This document shows positions 47,197 through 53,981 of a stretch of 64,000 nt of DNA, one piece after another. The stretch covers positions 372,001 to 436,000 of the forward strand of contig NZ_SSMQ01000002.1 in NCBI RefSeq assembly GCF_005144585.1, in the 5' to 3' direction. How positions within the stretch are numbered: position 1 is the stretch's first letter; the number at the start of each line of letters is the position of its first letter. The stretch comes from Polyangium fumosum. GTDB lineage: Bacteria > Myxococcota_A > Polyangia > Polyangiales > Polyangiaceae. The notes below the pieces were generated by a model. It ran no database searches. It was not told the DNA's origin and saw only the letters and a list, made by a program, of their open reading frames with translations. The translations under genes and the position numbers were made by a program.

Positions 47197-48146
47197 GGCG
47201 AGACGCGTCGCATCCGATACGGCAGCATGAACTGCACCACCCGGGTGCGGAACCGATCGAGCGAGAGCGCCTCGTGCACGCCGTGCGCGTGTTCGCCGAG
47301 GTAACGGCCGGAGAGCTGCGAGCGCGCGTAGAACGGTGTGTCTTCGAGCGTGCGCACGACCCGCGGGGACGTGCCCGGATCGACCCGCACGGGGCGCTCC
47401 ATGCCCCACAGCGTGCGCGGCGCGCGCGCGAGGGCGAGCGGTTCGAGCGGCTCGGACCGTCCGTCGGCGCCGAAGCTGTGCTGGATGAGATCACGGGTTC
47501 CGTCACGACGAACCGAGTCGTACGTCACGACCGTGCGGCGCCGCGTGGTGGCGCGGCTCCAGTTCCAGCCGGTGAAGCCGTCTTCGAGCGGCTCGCTGCC
47601 GAAGTTCGAGTCGACGTACGCCATGCCCGTCCAGCGCGTGCCCTCGGGGCGGCGGATGTCGACTTCGGCGCGGGCGATCGGCGCGATCGGCGCCCAGCGG
47701 TGACGGCCGTGCGTGTCGAGGACGAACGATTCGTGGACGATCGCGAGCGGATGGATCCGCACGGTGCCCGAAACGCGGCCCGGCAGCGGCGCGGTCTCCT
47801 CCTCGAAACGGACGACGAGCGTATCGTCCTGCCACTCCATCGAGCTCGTGCCGATGACGAGCGCCGTGCCATACCGGCGCACGTCGGTCCCGCCGCGCTC
47901 GGTGAACGACCACGCATCACGCGCGGGCCCATACAGCGCGACGTTCATCGAGCAATGGGCGAGCGGGTCGGCGGGGCCGCGCTTGCGTGCGGCCGCATAA
48001 AACGGCGAAAAGACGCTCCCGACGAGGCCGATGATGGTGATGCCGCTGCGGCCGTCGTCGCTGAGCGCGTCTAGATACCACCACGCATAACCGTTTCGCG
48101 GGACCGGCTCGTCGAAGCGAGGTCCTCGATCACGGCTTTCGCGCAC
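47193..48146 (-). CDS. crtC: carotenoid 1,2-hydratase
   Basis: A 317-residue protein matching the CrtC (hydroxyneurosporene synthase) family, which adds water to the psi-end of acyclic carotenoids. Typical stretches are GYAWWYLDALSDDG, ITIIGLVGSVFSPFYAAA, FGSEPLEDGFTGWNWSRA and RYLGEHAHGVHEALSL. No ATG exists; GTG 48146 (GTGCGCGAAAGC) is the likely start, overlapping the crtD end by 76 nt. Middle gene of the minus-strand unit crtD-crtC-glycosyltransferase. Confidence 0.88.
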   Translation of the reverse strand: MRESRDRGPRFDEPVPRNGYAWWYLDALSDDGRSGITIIGLVGSVFSPFYAAARKRGPADPLAHCSMNVALYGPARDAWSFTERGGTDVRRYGTALVIGTSSMEWQDDTLVVRFEEETAPLPGRVSGTVRIHPLAIVHESFVLDTHGRHRWAPIAPIARAEVDIRRPEGTRWTGMAYVDSNFGSEPLEDGFTGWNWSRATTRRRTVVTYDSVRRDGTRDLIQHSFGADGRSEPLEPLALARAPRTLWGMERPVRVDPGTSPRVVRTLEDTPFYARSQLSGRYLGEHAHGVHEALSLDRFRTRVVQFMLPYRMRRVSP

Positions 48147-49603
48147 AGGCGCCCGCTCAGCGCCGCCATCGGCACGCCCGCCCCCGGATGCGCGGCTCCA
48201 CCCGTCAGGTAGAGCCCCGGGATCTTCGTGCGCGACGCCGCCCGGACGAACGGGGACTTCCACCCGTGCGACGCCGGGCCGTACAGGGCCCCCCCCGTCG
48301 CTGGGAACATGCGATCGAACTCGCTCGGTGTCGTCACGACGGGCGGCGCGGCAAACGGCGGTAAGACGAGACCCGCCCGTTCGAGGAGCGAGAACGCTGC
48401 TGTTTCGCATTGCTTGATCTCCGAAGTGGTAAGGGCGCGCTGATCCCCGCGGGCCGGCGCATTGACGAGGCAGAGGAACCGCTCGGGGCCCGGAGGCGCT
48501 TGATCCCCGTCGTCGCGATCCTGGGCGCAGACGTACACCGTGGGCTCTCGGGGCAAGACGCCACGATCGAAGAGGTCGCGGAACTCCTCGTGATAATCCT
48601 TCGAGAAAAAGACGTTGTGGCGCGTGAGCGGATAGCCGCCCCGCGCCTCGGCCACGAACGCCCAGGTGAGGGCCGAGAGCGAGCGCTCCGCGGGGGCCGG
48701 GATTGCGCGCCTCCCGGACGCGCCGAGCATTCCCTGGAAGAGCGCCGCGGGGTCGCCATTGTGGACGACGAGGTCGGCCTGCAGCCGCTCGCCCGAGGCG
48801 AGGCGCACGCCCGCGGCCCGGTTGCCTTCCACGACGAGCTCCGTGACGTGCTCGCCGCAGCGAATCGTGACCCCGAGGCGCTCGGCCACCCGCGCGAGCG
48901 CCTCGGCGACCCGGTACATGCCGCCCTCGACGAGGTAGACGCCGTCGCGCTCGACGTGGGCGATCACGTTGAGCGTCGCCGGCGCGAGGAACGGCGAGGA
49001 GCCGCAATACGTGGCGTAGCGGCCGAAGAGCTGGCGCAAACGTGCGTCTTGGAAAAACTCGCCGAGGGCCTTCCAGAGGGTCCGGTGTCCGTCGATGGAG
49101 AGCATTCCCTGGAGGCCGAGCGAGCCGACCGCGACCATCGCCGAGCTGAGGCTCGGGCGCTCCGAACAGAGAAACGGCTTCTGCACGGTCTCGTAAATGC
49201 GCTGGGTATACGCGCAGAACCGCCGGTATCCCTCGCCCTCGGCGCGGCCGGCGAACGTCGATACGGCCGCGACGGAGCGGTCGAGATCGGCGTACAAATC
49301 GAGCGTGGGCCCCTCTCCCCAGGCGTGTCGCGCAAGCACCTCCGCCCGCCGAAGGGTAATCTCAGCGTCGAGCGAGGCTCCCGCCGAAGAAAACACCTCT
49401 TCGAGGACCCAGCGCATGGTCATGACCGTAGGTCCGGCATCAATCGCCCGTCCGCCCACGTCGACCTGCCGCATCTTGCCGCCGACCCTGGGCGCACGTT
49501 CGAGGACCACGACTTCGATCCCCCGACGAGCCAGCTCCAGCGCCGACACCAGGCCGCCCACGCCGGCGCCGATCACCACCGCACGGCTCGTCCTGTTCGC
49601 CAT
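48071..49603 (-). CDS. crtD: CrtD-type carotenoid 3,4-desaturase
   Basis: A 510-residue FAD enzyme of the CrtI/CrtD family: dinucleotide fold AVVIGAGVGGLVSALELARR, GGKMRQVDVGGRAIDAGPTV and C-terminal LTGGAAHPGAGVPMAALSG. Placed before crtC, it is best read as the 1-hydroxycarotenoid 3,4-desaturase rather than a second phytoene desaturase, though a role in splitting the phytoene desaturation steps, as in Myxococcus, cannot be excluded. AGGAAC precedes ATG 49603. It diverges from crtE. Confidence 0.87.
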   Translation of the reverse strand: MANRTSRAVVIGAGVGGLVSALELARRGIEVVVLERAPRVGGKMRQVDVGGRAIDAGPTVMTMRWVLEEVFSSAGASLDAEITLRRAEVLARHAWGEGPTLDLYADLDRSVAAVSTFAGRAEGEGYRRFCAYTQRIYETVQKPFLCSERPSLSSAMVAVGSLGLQGMLSIDGHRTLWKALGEFFQDARLRQLFGRYATYCGSSPFLAPATLNVIAHVERDGVYLVEGGMYRVAEALARVAERLGVTIRCGEHVTELVVEGNRAAGVRLASGERLQADLVVHNGDPAALFQGMLGASGRRAIPAPAERSLSALTWAFVAEARGGYPLTRHNVFFSKDYHEEFRDLFDRGVLPREPTVYVCAQDRDDGDQAPPGPERFLCLVNAPARGDQRALTTSEIKQCETAAFSLLERAGLVLPPFAAPPVVTTPSEFDRMFPATGGALYGPASHGWKSPFVRAASRTKIPGLYLTGGAAHPGAGVPMAALSGRLCAKAVIEDLASTSRSRETVMRGGI

Positions 49604-49633
49604 GAGCCCGTTCCTACAACAACCTTGGACATC

Positions 49634-49650
49634 TGTCTAGAGTTTGTTCA
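49634..49650 (-). promoter_or_regulatory. candidate CarH operator 3
   Basis: In the crtD-crtE spacer the minus strand has TGAACA and TAGACA, starting 11 bp apart (plus TGTTCA 49645-49650 and TGTCTA 49634-49639). Spacing matches operators 1 and 2, with five and four of six bases like TGTACA. It could control both divergent units. Confidence 0.35.
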
Positions 49651-49688
49651 TCATGGACCACCAAACCCTTGACAAGGGTTCCACATCC

Positions 49689-50612
49689 ATGGACGATACC
49701 CCTTGCATGGACGTCTCCAGTCGCGTCGAGCGCGCTCTGCGCGCAGCCCTCGATCCGATGTGCGCCCCGGGTGCCCCGCCCCGCCTCGCGGCCGCCGTCT
49801 ATCACTCCGTGTTCCCGGCCGGCGCTCGCATCCGGCCGCAGCTCTGCCTGCGCGTCGCCATGGCCTGCGGGGAAGACGTGCCGGGGCTCGCCGACGGAGT
49901 CGCCGCGGCCGTCGAGCTCATGCATTGCGCGTCGCTGGTCCACGACGACCTGCCCTGCTTCGACGCCGCCCTGACCCGGCGCGGACAACCTTCGACACAC
50001 CGTGCCTTCGGAGAGCCGCTCGCCGTGCTCGCCGGCGACCAGCTCCTCACGCTCGCCTTCGAGGTCCTGGCCCGCGCGTCGGCCGCGGCGCCGCTGCGGC
50101 TCGGCAAACTCGTGACCACGGTCGGCCGCGGCGTGGGCATGCCGTACGGGATCATCGCGGGCCAGGGCTGGGAGAGCGAGCCGAGCATCCCGGCGACGCT
50201 CTATCGAAGGGCCAAGACGGGCGCGCTCTTCGAGGCTGCCGCGGTGGGCGGCGCGGTCGCGGCCGGCGCCGATGCGGAGGAGGCGGAGGCGTGGCGCGGG
50301 TTCGGGCAGCGGATCGGCGAGGCCTACCAGATCGCCGACGACATGCTCGACGTGCTCAGCAACGCGGCGAGCGCAGGCAAACCCGTGGGCCGCGACGCAG
50401 CGCTCGGGCGGCCGAACGCGGCGTCCGACCTCGGGCTCGGCGCCTCGACGCACCTCTTCGAACAGCTCGTCGACGCCGCGATCCTGTCGATCCCGGACTG
50501 CCCCGGCCGCGAGGATCTCGCGCGCTGGGCCACGCAGGTGGTCGAGCGCATCCGCCGCCGCGCCCACGTGGCCGTGTCGCAAGGCGCGCAGGCCGAACAA
50601 CCCGAGGTTTGA
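49689..50612 (+). CDS. crtE: geranylgeranyl diphosphate synthase
   Basis: A 307-residue trans-isoprenyl diphosphate synthase supplying the C20 precursor for CrtB. The first Asp-rich motif SLVHDDLPCFDAALTRRG and the second YQIADDMLDVLS are intact, as are GARIRPQL and GDQLLTLAF. Start choice is uncertain: ATG 49689 (AAGGG upstream) is used here; 49653 and 49707 are also in frame. Last biosynthetic gene of the carotenoid region; converges with the HTTM gene after 7 nt. Confidence 0.92.
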   Translation: MDDTPCMDVSSRVERALRAALDPMCAPGAPPRLAAAVYHSVFPAGARIRPQLCLRVAMACGEDVPGLADGVAAAVELMHCASLVHDDLPCFDAALTRRGQPSTHRAFGEPLAVLAGDQLLTLAFEVLARASAAAPLRLGKLVTTVGRGVGMPYGIIAGQGWESEPSIPATLYRRAKTGALFEAAAVGGAVAAGADAEEAEAWRGFGQRIGEAYQIADDMLDVLSNAASAGKPVGRDAALGRPNAASDLGLGASTHLFEQLVDAAILSIPDCPGREDLARWATQVVERIRRRAHVAVSQGAQAEQPEV

Positions 50613-50619
50613 AGCGGCC

Positions 50620-52113
50620 TCAAGGGTGATGGAGAATCTGCGTCTTCCGTAGATTGCGGGGCGTCGTTTCGCCGGGAGGTGGGGCATCGGCGGAGACCCA
50701 CCAGACGTCGAGCGCGACGATCCGCTCGGAGGCGGCGAGCCCTTCGCGACGGTGCCAGTCGAGGAGCCAGCGCGCGAGCGCGTCGCGGTAGCGCGCGAAG
50801 GGCTCGCGCCGCACGTGATAAAAGTATTCGCACCGGAGCTGGCTCATCGCGCCCGGGCCGCGCATGAGCACGTCGAAATCGGGGGGCGCGCCGGTGAGCG
50901 GGTCGATGTGCCGACCGGATTCGGTGCGCGCATCCACGACGAAGGTCCCGTCGTGGCGCGGCGCCTCGGGGGCGAATTGGTTCCAGCCCTGGATCAGGCG
51001 CAGGTACCGGACCGGCGTGGGAAACGGCGGAGGCACGCGCAACCACGTCGGCACGACGGCATTGTCCTGGGTGATCTGCGCGCCGATCGTGACCAGCACG
51101 AGCAGCACAGCCGTCTCGCGCAGCGCGCGTCCCCAGCGATGAACGTGCTCGAAAAAGGGCAAAGGACTCGGCGGCGGGAGGCTCGACGCCGCGCTCGATC
51201 GGGAGAGCCTCGCGAAAAAGGGGACGCGACGGAGCAGGGCGTCGATGGCCGTCGGCGGCAAAAGCAGCAGGTTGAAGCCGATCATCGCCCAGGAAAAGAC
51301 GCCCACCGAAAAGAGCAACGCGATGCCGAGGTGCAGCGCCGTCGTGAGCACGAAGTGGAGCGTCCGCGTGGCGCCTGTCCGCAGCGGAGACAACACGAGC
51401 AGCGGCGCGCTCCACTCGATCACGAGCGTGAACCACGACAGAGCCGGCGACAGCCACGCGGGCTCGTGAAGCCGAAGCAGGCCCGCGGCCGACGTGGTGA
51501 GGCGGTGTTGCCAGAGGACATCGTGCACCGCCTCGCCCGCGCGCCACGTCGCTCCGCTCTTCTGGACGGCGTTGAGCAGGTAAATCGCGGCGATCTGGAG
51601 CGCGAGGGCGAGCACGGCGAGCGAGGTGAAGGCCGCTTCGCCTTCGGGCTCGCCGCGCCGCGCCTTTCGCCAGGCGTCGACGGAGTACCGATCGCCGAGC
51701 GGGAGAAACGTCGTCCACACGAGCAGCGCCGCCATCGCCGCGTTGCCCGAGTTCTCCAGGAACAGGTTGCGCGCGCCGAGGCTCGTCCAGACGAGCAGCG
51801 CGAGGATCTGCGCGAGCTTCGTGTGAAAGCCCGCGACGAGCGCGAGGTAGACACACGCGAACAGGACGAACGCGAAGGCCACCTCGCCCGGCGAGGTGAA
51901 GGCGTGCAGCAGCGAGAAGTTCGGGGATGCGAGCGGCGCGAACAGCGACAGGTGGGAAGGCAAGACGCCTTCGTCGCTGTAGAAAAGCGCGAGCTCGGGC
52001 AACCTGCGGCCGAGATCCCCGAGCAGGACCACGCCGAGGTAGATCCGAAACAGACCCAGCAGGCGCCGATCGATCGAGAGGTACGACGCCCGGAGGGATC
52101 CGGGTTCGGTCAT
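50620..52113 (-). CDS. HTTM-domain membrane protein
   Basis: A 497-residue integral membrane protein with the HTTM (vitamin-K-dependent carboxylase-like) layout: RRLLGLFRIYLGVVLLGDL at the start, FYSDEGVLPSHL, paired helices up to about residue 330, FLENSGNAAMAALLVW, then a soluble C-terminal part (RYLRLIQGWNQFAPEAPRHD, FYHVRREPFARYRDALARWL). The enzymatic activity of bacterial HTTM proteins is unknown. It starts 4 nt after the zinc-ribbon Gly-rich gene, itself 31 nt from the radical SAM gene, so the three are one unit. Confidence 0.85.
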   Translation of the reverse strand: MTEPGSLRASYLSIDRRLLGLFRIYLGVVLLGDLGRRLPELALFYSDEGVLPSHLSLFAPLASPNFSLLHAFTSPGEVAFAFVLFACVYLALVAGFHTKLAQILALLVWTSLGARNLFLENSGNAAMAALLVWTTFLPLGDRYSVDAWRKARRGEPEGEAAFTSLAVLALALQIAAIYLLNAVQKSGATWRAGEAVHDVLWQHRLTTSAAGLLRLHEPAWLSPALSWFTLVIEWSAPLLVLSPLRTGATRTLHFVLTTALHLGIALLFSVGVFSWAMIGFNLLLLPPTAIDALLRRVPFFARLSRSSAASSLPPPSPLPFFEHVHRWGRALRETAVLLVLVTIGAQITQDNAVVPTWLRVPPPFPTPVRYLRLIQGWNQFAPEAPRHDGTFVVDARTESGRHIDPLTGAPPDFDVLMRGPGAMSQLRCEYFYHVRREPFARYRDALARWLLDWHRREGLAASERIVALDVWWVSADAPPPGETTPRNLRKTQILHHP

Positions 52114-52117
52114 CGCA

Positions 52118-52573
52118 TCACTTGCTGCCGGAGCCGCCGTCGCCGCCGTCGCCACCCGCGCCGCCCACGCCGCCCACGCCGCCCATCCCGCCGCCGCCCA
52201 CGCCGGGACCGGTCGTCCAACCCGGGCCGCCGCCGTACGCGCCGCCGACACCGGGAGAGCCGCCCATGCCGCCGCCCCCCCAACCGGGGCCGCCGCCATA
52301 TGCGCCACCGACGCTGGGAGAGCCACCGAAGCCGCCCACGTCACCCGTGCTGCCCGCACCTCCCGAGCCGTCTTTGACGTCGCTGCCACACGCGGCCGCG
52401 GCGAGCGTGCTGCCGAACGCGAAGATCATCGCGCGGGTCAGGCGCCCCGTGGGGAGCGTGCGCGCGCGCGATTCCATGTCCTCGGGGACGGCTTGTCCGC
52501 AAAACGGGCACGTGGCCTCGGATATGCGGATGTGACGGTTGCAAGAAGGGCAAGGCGCGAGGGAAGCTTTCAT
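52118..52573 (-). CDS. zinc-ribbon lipoprotein with Gly/Tyr/Trp repeats, possible modified precursor
   Basis: A 151-residue protein with four parts: a zinc ribbon (C8, C11, C22, C25), a hydrophobic segment (about 47-61) ending in a lipobox-like AAAAC with Cys62, a Gly-rich region, and within it two 16-residue repeats, GGSPSVGGAYGGGPGW (83-98) and GGSPGVGGAYGGGPGW (104-119). The tail is nearly pure Gly/Val/Asp. Lying between a radical SAM/SPASM enzyme and an HTTM protein, it is a plausible substrate whose Tyr/Trp residues are modified. This is inference. Confidence 0.75.
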   Translation of the reverse strand: MKASLAPCPSCNRHIRISEATCPFCGQAVPEDMESRARTLPTGRLTRAMIFAFGSTLAAAACGSDVKDGSGGAGSTGDVGGFGGSPSVGGAYGGGPGWGGGGMGGSPGVGGAYGGGPGWTTGPGVGGGGMGGVGGVGGAGGDGGDGGSGSK

Positions 52574-52604
52574 TCCTTACAGGTCTCCGGACTCGCGCTT
52601 CGTG

Positions 52605-53981
52605 TCAAGGCACAACCGGGGCGAGGCCGTAGCGTCGCCGCGCGTCGTCGAGATCGTGCGCGGGCCAGTCCTCCTCGATCAGCTCGAAACGCCCGTGATC
52701 GAAGGGTTTGCCCGAGGCCGCCTCCGCAGGGACGAGCCGCTCGCGCCGCCCCTTGCGCAAAAGTTCGAGCGAGCGGTGATGGCAAAACGGGTTGTTGCCA
52801 CGTCGCCCGAAGAGCACATGCGCCGTCCAGCTACAGCCGGCCATGCAGGCGTCGCCGTAATAGCAGTCGCCGCAGTGGCCCCATAACTCGTCCACGGTGC
52901 GGTCGCGCGTGAAGCGCAGCGCATCGGTCTGCTCCCAGACCTCTCGCAACGATCGCTCCCGGATGTTGCCGCCCACGTACGCTTGCGACGGTAGCGACGG
53001 GCAACCCTTGAGATCGCCGTTGGCCTCGACGCCGAGCAACGTGCGGCCCGCGCCACACGAGCCGTTGTATCCCATGGGGAACGAGCCCCGCAGCACGTGC
53101 TCGTACGGGCCGAAGTAGCCGATGTTGTTGGCGGGCCAGATGCGCAGCCCGTGCCGATCGCCGCGCTCCTTCAAGGCCGCGAGCATCGGCATCACCTCCA
53201 GCATCTGCCACGGTTCGAGCAGCACCTCGGGCTGGTCGGCGGCGCGGCCCATGGCGACCGTGATCTGCACCTGCCACGTGTCGACACCCGCCGCGATCAA
53301 CCCCTCGAACACCGCAGGAACCTCGGCGAGGTTGAGGCGGCCGATCTGCGTGTTGGCGTTGACGACGAGCCCCGCCTCCTTCGTGTTCCGGAGCGCCTCC
53401 ATCGCGCTCGCGTGGCTGCCCTTCACGCCGCGCAACATGTCGTGGGTCGCGGCGAGCCCGTCGATCGACACCGAAACGCTACGCACGCCCGCGGCCTTCG
53501 CGCGCCGCGCGCGTTCGGCGGAGAAACCTCGACCTCCCGTGGTGATCGTGCAGGTCATCCCGGCGTCGACGATCGCCTTCGCGATGACGTCCCAGTCGTC
53601 ACGCAGGTACGCCTCGCCGCCGATCAGCGTGATTTCGGTGACCTCGAGGTCCCGCATCTGCCGCACGAGGTCGAGCGCCTCCTCGGTGGAGAGCTCCTCG
53701 GGTCGCGCTCGTCCCGCGCGTGATCCGCAATGATGACAGGCGAGATCGCAGCGCAGCGTGATCTCCCAGATCACGTAGATCGGCCGCCACGCCTGGTCGA
53801 CGCCACGCGAAGGACCCGCGAGCGGCAGATGACGCCGCGGCGGATCGGCCAGCGGCGCCACGGGGAGCGAGCGATTGCGGACGAGGACCGTTCGCGGCGT
53901 GAGGAGAGGTGTGGGCACCGGCGGCTCGAAGCCGTCGGCTTCCCGGAGAGGGATCAAGGAAGGATCAGAAGCCGAAGACAC
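52605..53981 (-). CDS. radical SAM/SPASM-domain enzyme
   Basis: A 458-residue enzyme. The SAM-binding cluster CDLACHHC (C78, C82, C85) follows YVIWEITLRC; GGEAYLRDDW matches the GGE motif; a TIM-barrel region follows. The C-terminal half has SPASM-type cysteines (SCGAGRTLLG, LKGCPSLPS, HCGDCYYGDACMAGC, PFCHH) for auxiliary Fe-S clusters. SPASM enzymes mostly modify ribosomal peptides or proteins. An N-terminal extension of about 65 residues might bind substrate. First of a three-gene unit with the Gly-rich lipoprotein and HTTM protein. Confidence 0.9.
   Translation of the reverse strand: MSSASDPSLIPLREADGFEPPVPTPLLTPRTVLVRNRSLPVAPLADPPRRHLPLAGPSRGVDQAWRPIYVIWEITLRCDLACHHCGSRAGRARPEELSTEEALDLVRQMRDLEVTEITLIGGEAYLRDDWDVIAKAIVDAGMTCTITTGGRGFSAERARRAKAAGVRSVSVSIDGLAATHDMLRGVKGSHASAMEALRNTKEAGLVVNANTQIGRLNLAEVPAVFEGLIAAGVDTWQVQITVAMGRAADQPEVLLEPWQMLEVMPMLAALKERGDRHGLRIWPANNIGYFGPYEHVLRGSFPMGYNGSCGAGRTLLGVEANGDLKGCPSLPSQAYVGGNIRERSLREVWEQTDALRFTRDRTVDELWGHCGDCYYGDACMAGCSWTAHVLFGRRGNNPFCHHRSLELLRKGRRERLVPAEAASGKPFDHGRFELIEEDWPAHDLDDARRRYGLAPVVP

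Follow-up and report, generated by a model that had tools for sequence, protein, structure and literature searches.

A radical SAM/SPASM enzyme and a zinc-ribbon-led lipoprotein form a candidate protein-splicing unit in Polyangium and related bacteria

What does a radical SAM/SPASM enzyme do beside a Gly-rich lipoprotein that begins with a zinc ribbon? The question is raised by a stretch of 64,000 nucleotides of Polyangium fumosum DNA (contig NZ_SSMQ01000002.1; "the window" hereafter means this whole stretch), in which three minus-strand genes stand in a row: a splicease-like radical SAM/SPASM enzyme (52605..53981; 458 aa, GTG start; assigned from Pfam, NCBIfam, tree and cysteines), the zinc-ribbon-led lipoprotein (52118..52573; 151 aa) and an HTTM membrane protein (50620..52113; 497 aa; PF05090, 4.6e-14, from residue 8 on). 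The gaps of 31 and 4 nt given for this row in an initial annotation of the sequence are both correct; the HTTM gene lies outside the interval 52118-53981 to which that annotation was assigned. The trio goes beyond chance, since a same-genus genome (enzyme 98% identical, lipoprotein a near-copy, HTTM 93%) and a second genus (HTTM 47%) carry the corresponding three genes. The interval 48071-50612, next to the HTTM gene, holds what we take, as a guess at the pathway, to be carotenoid-type genes: a minus-strand gene for an amino-oxidase resembling phytoene desaturase and a plus-strand polyprenyl synthetase gene.

The window lipoprotein matched neither a Pfam family (limit 1e-3) nor an NCBIfam family (limit 0.01). 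Its order, on the minus strand, is a CxxC-CxxC leader (CPSCNRHIRISEATCPFC, residues 8-25; 52499..52552; placed by leader alignment and profile), a hydrophobic stretch running into a lipobox-like Cys62 (LAAAAC; residues 44-62; 52388..52444; assigned by sequence pattern alone) and a 90-residue Gly-rich remainder. Within the remainder lie two repeats, GGSPSVGGAYGGGPGW (residues 83-98; 52280..52327) and GGSPGVGGAYGGGPGW (residues 104-119; 52217..52264), identical at 15 of 16 positions and recurring with a DNA period of 63 nt. Both tyrosines behind the lipobox (2/2) sit in Ala-Tyr-Gly, at residues 91-93 (52295..52303) and 112-114 (52232..52240); these are the predicted splice sites. Leader, lipobox and two 16-residue repeats had already been described, and we agree with the earlier remark that a zinc-ribbon leader is unusual on a lipoprotein precursor. 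Across the family the leader reads PCPxCxRHVRxxExxCPFCG, with C, C, R, H, C, P, F and C invariant among 14 aligned leaders. It is present in 36 of 59 relatives (limit 0.01) and, at 1e-4, in 64 of the 282 phylum genomes, with up to 25 matches in one genome ("relatives", "order" and "phylum" denote kinship classes assigned by genome search).

The window enzyme matched the Pfam families Radical_SAM (3.7e-21) and SPASM (2.2e-7). The SAM and SPASM cysteines first noted in it are present as a CxxxCxxC motif (C78, C82, C85) and seven SPASM-type cysteines (309, 327, 370, 373, 379, 383 and 400), each at least 97% conserved across 97 related enzymes. Its two top NCBIfam matches were TIGR04103, for nif11-class peptide radical SAM maturase 3, at 502 bits, and TIGR03913, for the GDL-motif maturase, at 448 bits; the third reached 160. 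Both scores fall below the equivalog cut-offs (725 and 591.75, respectively); a Nostoc plasmid enzyme scores 853 against TIGR04103. Identity was 48-53% to 20 cyanobacterial TIGR04103-type enzymes versus 32-41% to the SPASM enzymes used as controls (n = 12). A quickly built tree took in 109 sequences: 74 of the window's order, the 20 cyanobacterial enzymes, three from plasmids of Azospirillum, Aureibacter and Tropicibacter, and the 12 controls; PlpX (WP_019503880.1) was not among them. It placed the window-order, cyanobacterial and plasmid enzymes on one branch (SH-aLRT 100) apart from the controls. The window enzyme grouped there with its same-genus copy first and then with the locus of the second genus. 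Six residues (E116, N210, G395, G411, E414 and D428) were kept in at least 97% of the 97 branch enzymes and in at most 20% of the 12 controls. Sequence searches of the PDB returned distant relatives only, the best being SkfB and PqqE, and a structure model of modest quality (mean pLDDT 65.9, from 23 sequences) was not used for any conclusion.

Enzyme and lipoprotein recur together. Among 72 enzyme loci, taken in score order with a small number of contig-end fragments omitted, and including the window and its two paralogs, the leader profile was found within 3 kb in 44 (42 within 500 bp, 32 on the same strand) and in none of 11 control loci with weaker SPASM relatives. Three of the 28 enzyme loci without a match (L086, L109 and L112) do carry a leader, whose open frame overruns the enzyme region and was excluded by rule. 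A broader ribbon-lipobox-YG pattern, which also covers a second class of lipoprotein (see below) and was accepted at any distance inside the fetched locus, occurred in 58/72 enzyme loci and 0/11 controls, leaving 14/72 without even that. The same association held between genomes, in counts that ignore kinship and are hence non-independent. Where relatives had a strong enzyme (1e-100), 35 of 39 carried the leader, versus 1 of 20 where they did not (counted by eye). In the phylum sample (n = 282; enzyme limit 1e-90), the enzyme was present in 60/64 leader-positive genomes versus 88/282 overall, and the leader in 60/88 enzyme-positive versus 4/194 enzyme-negative genomes (p = 1.9e-34, with related genomes counted as if independent); 28 of the 88 enzyme-positive genomes lacked a leader of the window type. 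Where a contig carried both, the pair lay within 1.5 kb in 31 of 33 cases (read off two lists). The pair seen in the window is found in many related bacteria.

Co-occurrence of all three families had been proposed as a check, and here the answer is divided: the enzyme and lipoprotein pair is upheld, while HTTM lies near 3/72 enzyme loci (0/11 controls), namely the window, its same-genus copy and one other-genus locus. The HTTM protein was accordingly dropped as a core part or regular partner and is regarded as a lineage-specific neighbour. All three HTTM-bearing loci have AYGGGP repeats, and HTTM could be active on this subtype or simply be carried along.

The feature held constant in the lipoproteins is Tyr followed by Gly. 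Once duplicates were removed, 43 enzyme loci (the window, its two paralog loci and 40 fetched regions) yielded 57 ORFs with the zinc-ribbon leader, and YG was found downstream of it in 57/57. The strict lipobox pattern, a test of pattern only, was matched by 49 of these, in which 98 of 110 mature tyrosines were YG; 2000 composition shuffles gave a mean of 20.5 (sd 3.8, max 35). In 44 loci away from listed enzyme hits (on short contigs, the enzyme could sit beyond the visible DNA), YG occurred in 46/47 ORFs and at 90 of 108 tyrosines in the 45 ORFs with a strict lipobox. A held-out set, comprising 18 of 30 phylum leader loci in genomes unused before and selected by leader only, gave YG in 32/35 ORFs and at 68/89 tyrosines (shuffles 16.1 ± 3.5, max 29); two of the three misses are truncated by the locus end and one (L297) is a true full-length miss. 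The bias is specific: with the enzyme-locus and away sets pooled, YG accounted for 188/218 Tyr, against 6 GY, FG at 9/83 Phe, WG at 3/24 Trp and MG at 12/127. At 98 XYG sites in relatives, X was Ala, Leu, Pro, Val or Met in 86, and Pro preceded X in 48 and stood at +3 from Tyr in 69 and at +4 in 57. The window context, VGGAYGGGPG, is unlike the commoner P-X-Y-G-x-P-P. The pair and the tyrosine of the lipoprotein are both conserved, and the lipoprotein is, as originally suggested, likely to be the enzyme's substrate.

Several variants of the lipoprotein were observed. In a second class (CxxCxxFxP...C..C...LMAC-YG or similar; L014, L115, L246, L250-L254, L256, L258-L262 and, in the held-out set, L298, L303, L304, L307 and L309), the lipobox Cys is itself the X of the XYG site, which would make X the lipidated residue. 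This Cys-Tyr-Gly was also seen behind type-A ribbons in held-out loci. Another subtype has a PYGCVFP tail (L101, L103, L104, L106, L108 and L075), with the C-terminus ...PDEACD where printed in full; its loci belong to same-genus genomes plus L106, and L075 has no listed enzyme nearby. Two longer zinc-ribbon-leader proteins (L230, 262 aa; L231, 508 aa) have their last Tyr as the sole YG (CYGAP and PYGCVWP), as if larger proteins were decorated by splicing too.

A chemistry for Xaa-Tyr-Gly has been described in the plp system, where PlpX with PlpY removes tyramine from this motif and the chain is rejoined as an alpha-keto amide (PMC11002830, PMC10533398, PMC10373908); such splicing is reported to be broadly distributed in bacteria (PMC10373908). 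The architecture of the cyanobacterial relatives examined here matches that of plp as published (PMC11002830): a PlpY-like small gene was found in 78 of 80 cyanobacterial loci, and an XYG precursor lay close by in 55 of 80, as judged by a simple ORF criterion that admits some chance ORFs. The Nostoc plasmid enzyme, 53% identical to that of the window, adjoins a Nif11 precursor ending IALYGLPPELF and is itself followed by a 71-residue protein, the PlpY-like small gene product; one zinc-ribbon lipoprotein carries the near-identical core MMALYGLPPA. The window type thus resembles the PlpXY and cyanobacterial TIGR04103 systems in its SPASM enzyme, which falls on the cyanobacterial branch, and in having one or several Xaa-Tyr-Gly sites with similar cores. 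A place for PlpX itself on this branch is suggested by published description, annotation and architecture. Pleurocapsa sp. PCC 7319, the source of PlpXY, was absent from the 80 of 198 relatives kept in a contig scan with the Nostoc enzyme, and the published splice tag, searched as a degenerate pattern, occurred in 0/3 and 0/388 genomes. Within the window's own family, one relative (L265:4657-6123) carries a GG-leader precursor containing GGAAPFIPMYGVPLPG, next to an enzyme placed among the cyanobacterial ones.

The differences from PlpXY concern the leader and the partner. The window type has a zinc-ribbon lipoprotein where PlpXY-type systems have a Nif11/nitrile-hydratase leader, often has many leader genes per genome, scores below the TIGR04103 cut-off, and was not found with PlpY. 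A PlpY profile that matches 82 cyanobacterial ORFs had 0 matches in the 43 zinc-ribbon-type loci, in L240-L279 and in the plasmid GDL-type loci, and the leader profile had no match at 1e-3 in the cyanobacterial loci. The leader profile did match the enzyme itself in three plasmid systems: in the N-terminal part in Tropicibacter (31.8 bits, 2e-9) and at the C-terminus in Azospirillum (22.4 bits, 1.7e-6) and Aureibacter (only 14.8 bits, 4e-4). In the loci examined, the ribbon is borne either by the substrate or by the enzyme, and ribbon and PlpY were not found in one locus, a pattern which suggests that the ribbon replaces PlpY. Since it is fused to enzymes of the same branch, few as these are (n = 3), and PlpY was not found, the ribbon is probably a docking module.

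The plasmid loci invite comparison with the GDL-motif system (TIGR03913 enzymes with DUF1843 peptides), which shares the enzyme branch and in which some peptides have an N-terminal XYG. There, however, the ribbon is on the enzyme rather than the precursor and those peptides that were observed are small, non-lipoprotein ones, whereas the neighbour of the window enzyme is a lipoprotein, not a DUF1843 peptide. In two such loci (L117:4091-6488 and L118:4159-6362) the enzyme C-terminus is a related zinc ribbon, and the N-terminal motif of the DUF1843 peptides is XYG in some and XYA or XYM in others; these GDL-motif enzymes may be spliceases too. The Tropicibacter plasmid enzyme with its N-terminal zinc ribbon (L119:4695-6317) lies beside annotated trypsin-like peptidase and M23 peptidase genes, and no clear splice peptide was seen in its three other translated neighbours.

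We consider it probable, from sequence comparison, that enzyme and lipoprotein form a protein-splicing unit in which tyramine is excised under guidance of the ribbon and the product is anchored by lipid. Gene pairing, motif constancy, the branch shared with cyanobacterial enzymes, the ribbon fusions and the failure to find PlpY all come from the analysis itself; the reaction, leader docking, lipidation and location are what we infer from them. In the cytosol, the enzyme would dock on the lipoprotein precursor through the N-terminal zinc ribbon, which would act as a RiPP leader, and would excise a tyramine equivalent at each Ala-Tyr-Gly. The hydrophobic segment would then lead to export, Cys62 would be lipidated and the chain cut before it. 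Because this cut would take off ribbon and signal peptide in one piece, lipoprotein signal peptidase would double as the leader protease. The predicted end product is a 90-residue Gly-rich chain, anchored in the membrane and bearing two reactive ketoamides. As PlpXY is reported to dispense with its leader (PMC10533398), docking may serve selection among the proteins of the cell. The routing predicted here would be comparable to that of DAG-RiPPs, RiPP-lipoprotein hybrids made by MNIO enzymes and reported in 2025, in which a precursor modified by a RiPP enzyme passes through the lipoprotein pathway (PMC12636315). Enzyme family and chemistry differ, and leader-independent pathways are deemed likeliest in that report, in contrast to the leader domain that lies ahead of the predicted signal peptide in the present case.

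The same Tyr-Gly sites might instead be modified with tyramine retained, by cross-linking, epimerisation, Tyr oxidation or partial cleavage. We regard this as unlikely, although SPASM enzymes are chemically diverse, the window enzyme is under the TIGR04103 cut-off, PlpY was not found and, in the literature excerpts at hand, tyramine excision is described for PlpXY only. The motif and near-identical cores are common to the cyanobacterial Nif11 precursors, whose enzymes share the branch, and a Tyr cross-link alone would need no Gly after Tyr. The initial annotation had proposed that the Gly/Tyr/Trp repeats are modified in the manner of GRRM or cyclophane-forming systems, and the window protein does have Gly-rich repeats with Tyr and Trp. 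The conservation check proposed with it bore out the Tyr, kept as YG, and failed for the Trp: in the sister locus the repeats (AYGGGPLAG, AYGGGPFAG) retain Tyr-Gly and have lost the Trp, 94 mature chains contain 24 Trp, and YG is constant while Gly content varies. No GRRM maturase was among the best 25 of 62 NCBIfam matches, and the top curated matches were TIGR04103 and TIGR03913 instead. We have dropped this reading as very improbable, together with a role for Trp and the expected change of -2 Da, in place of which the motif predicts a loss of C8H9NO (~135 Da) per site. That an ordinary SPASM enzyme merely lies beside an unrelated low-complexity lipoprotein would fit the absence of the leader type from 28/88 enzyme-positive genomes and, within 3 kb, from 28/72 loci, but is hardly credible against its presence in 44/72 loci within 3 kb, the broader pattern in 58/72 (each 0/11 in controls), the genome co-occurrence (kinship ignored) and the YG enrichment in held-out ORFs.

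If splicing is accepted as the preferred reading, its function is the weakest step of the explanation. Elastase- and subtilisin-like proteases prefer residues such as Ala, Leu, Pro, Val or Met, and Pro-X pairs, of the kind found at the sites in relatives, and on this ground the spliced chains could, tentatively, be anchored inhibitors of such proteases. Protease inhibition has been reported for spliceotides in papers citing Scott 2022 (PMC11117315, PMC10373908), which fits the Pro-X sites of the relatives; the Gly-Ala-Tyr-Gly of the window is less typical. It is more doubtful still that the envelope in this phylum is coated with families of proteins bearing lipid-anchored ketoamide arrays, spliced under ribbon guidance and trapping proteases covalently, the second class being spliced from the lipidated Cys itself.

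In literature titles and abstract openings, none among the matches listed dealt with zinc-ribbon leaders or with lipoproteins that undergo splicing. Such cases may be treated in Scott et al. 2022 (Chem 8:2659), reportedly, by its title, an account of the splicing of peptides and proteins. What appears new here is a zinc-ribbon-guided, lipid-anchored class of predicted splicing substrates, some of which may well have been described already in that work.

The pairing suggests that the bacteria which carry it anchor chemically rewired proteins in their envelope. If true, backbone protein splicing would extend from RiPP precursors to membrane-anchored lipoproteins, phylum-wide, and a new type of leader, a metal-binding knuckle placed on substrate or enzyme, could explain spliceases that work without PlpY. 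The new spliceases, with their many natural substrates, would be useful for ketoamide labelling of proteins, and the cellular role of ribosomal beta-amino acids would become directly testable.
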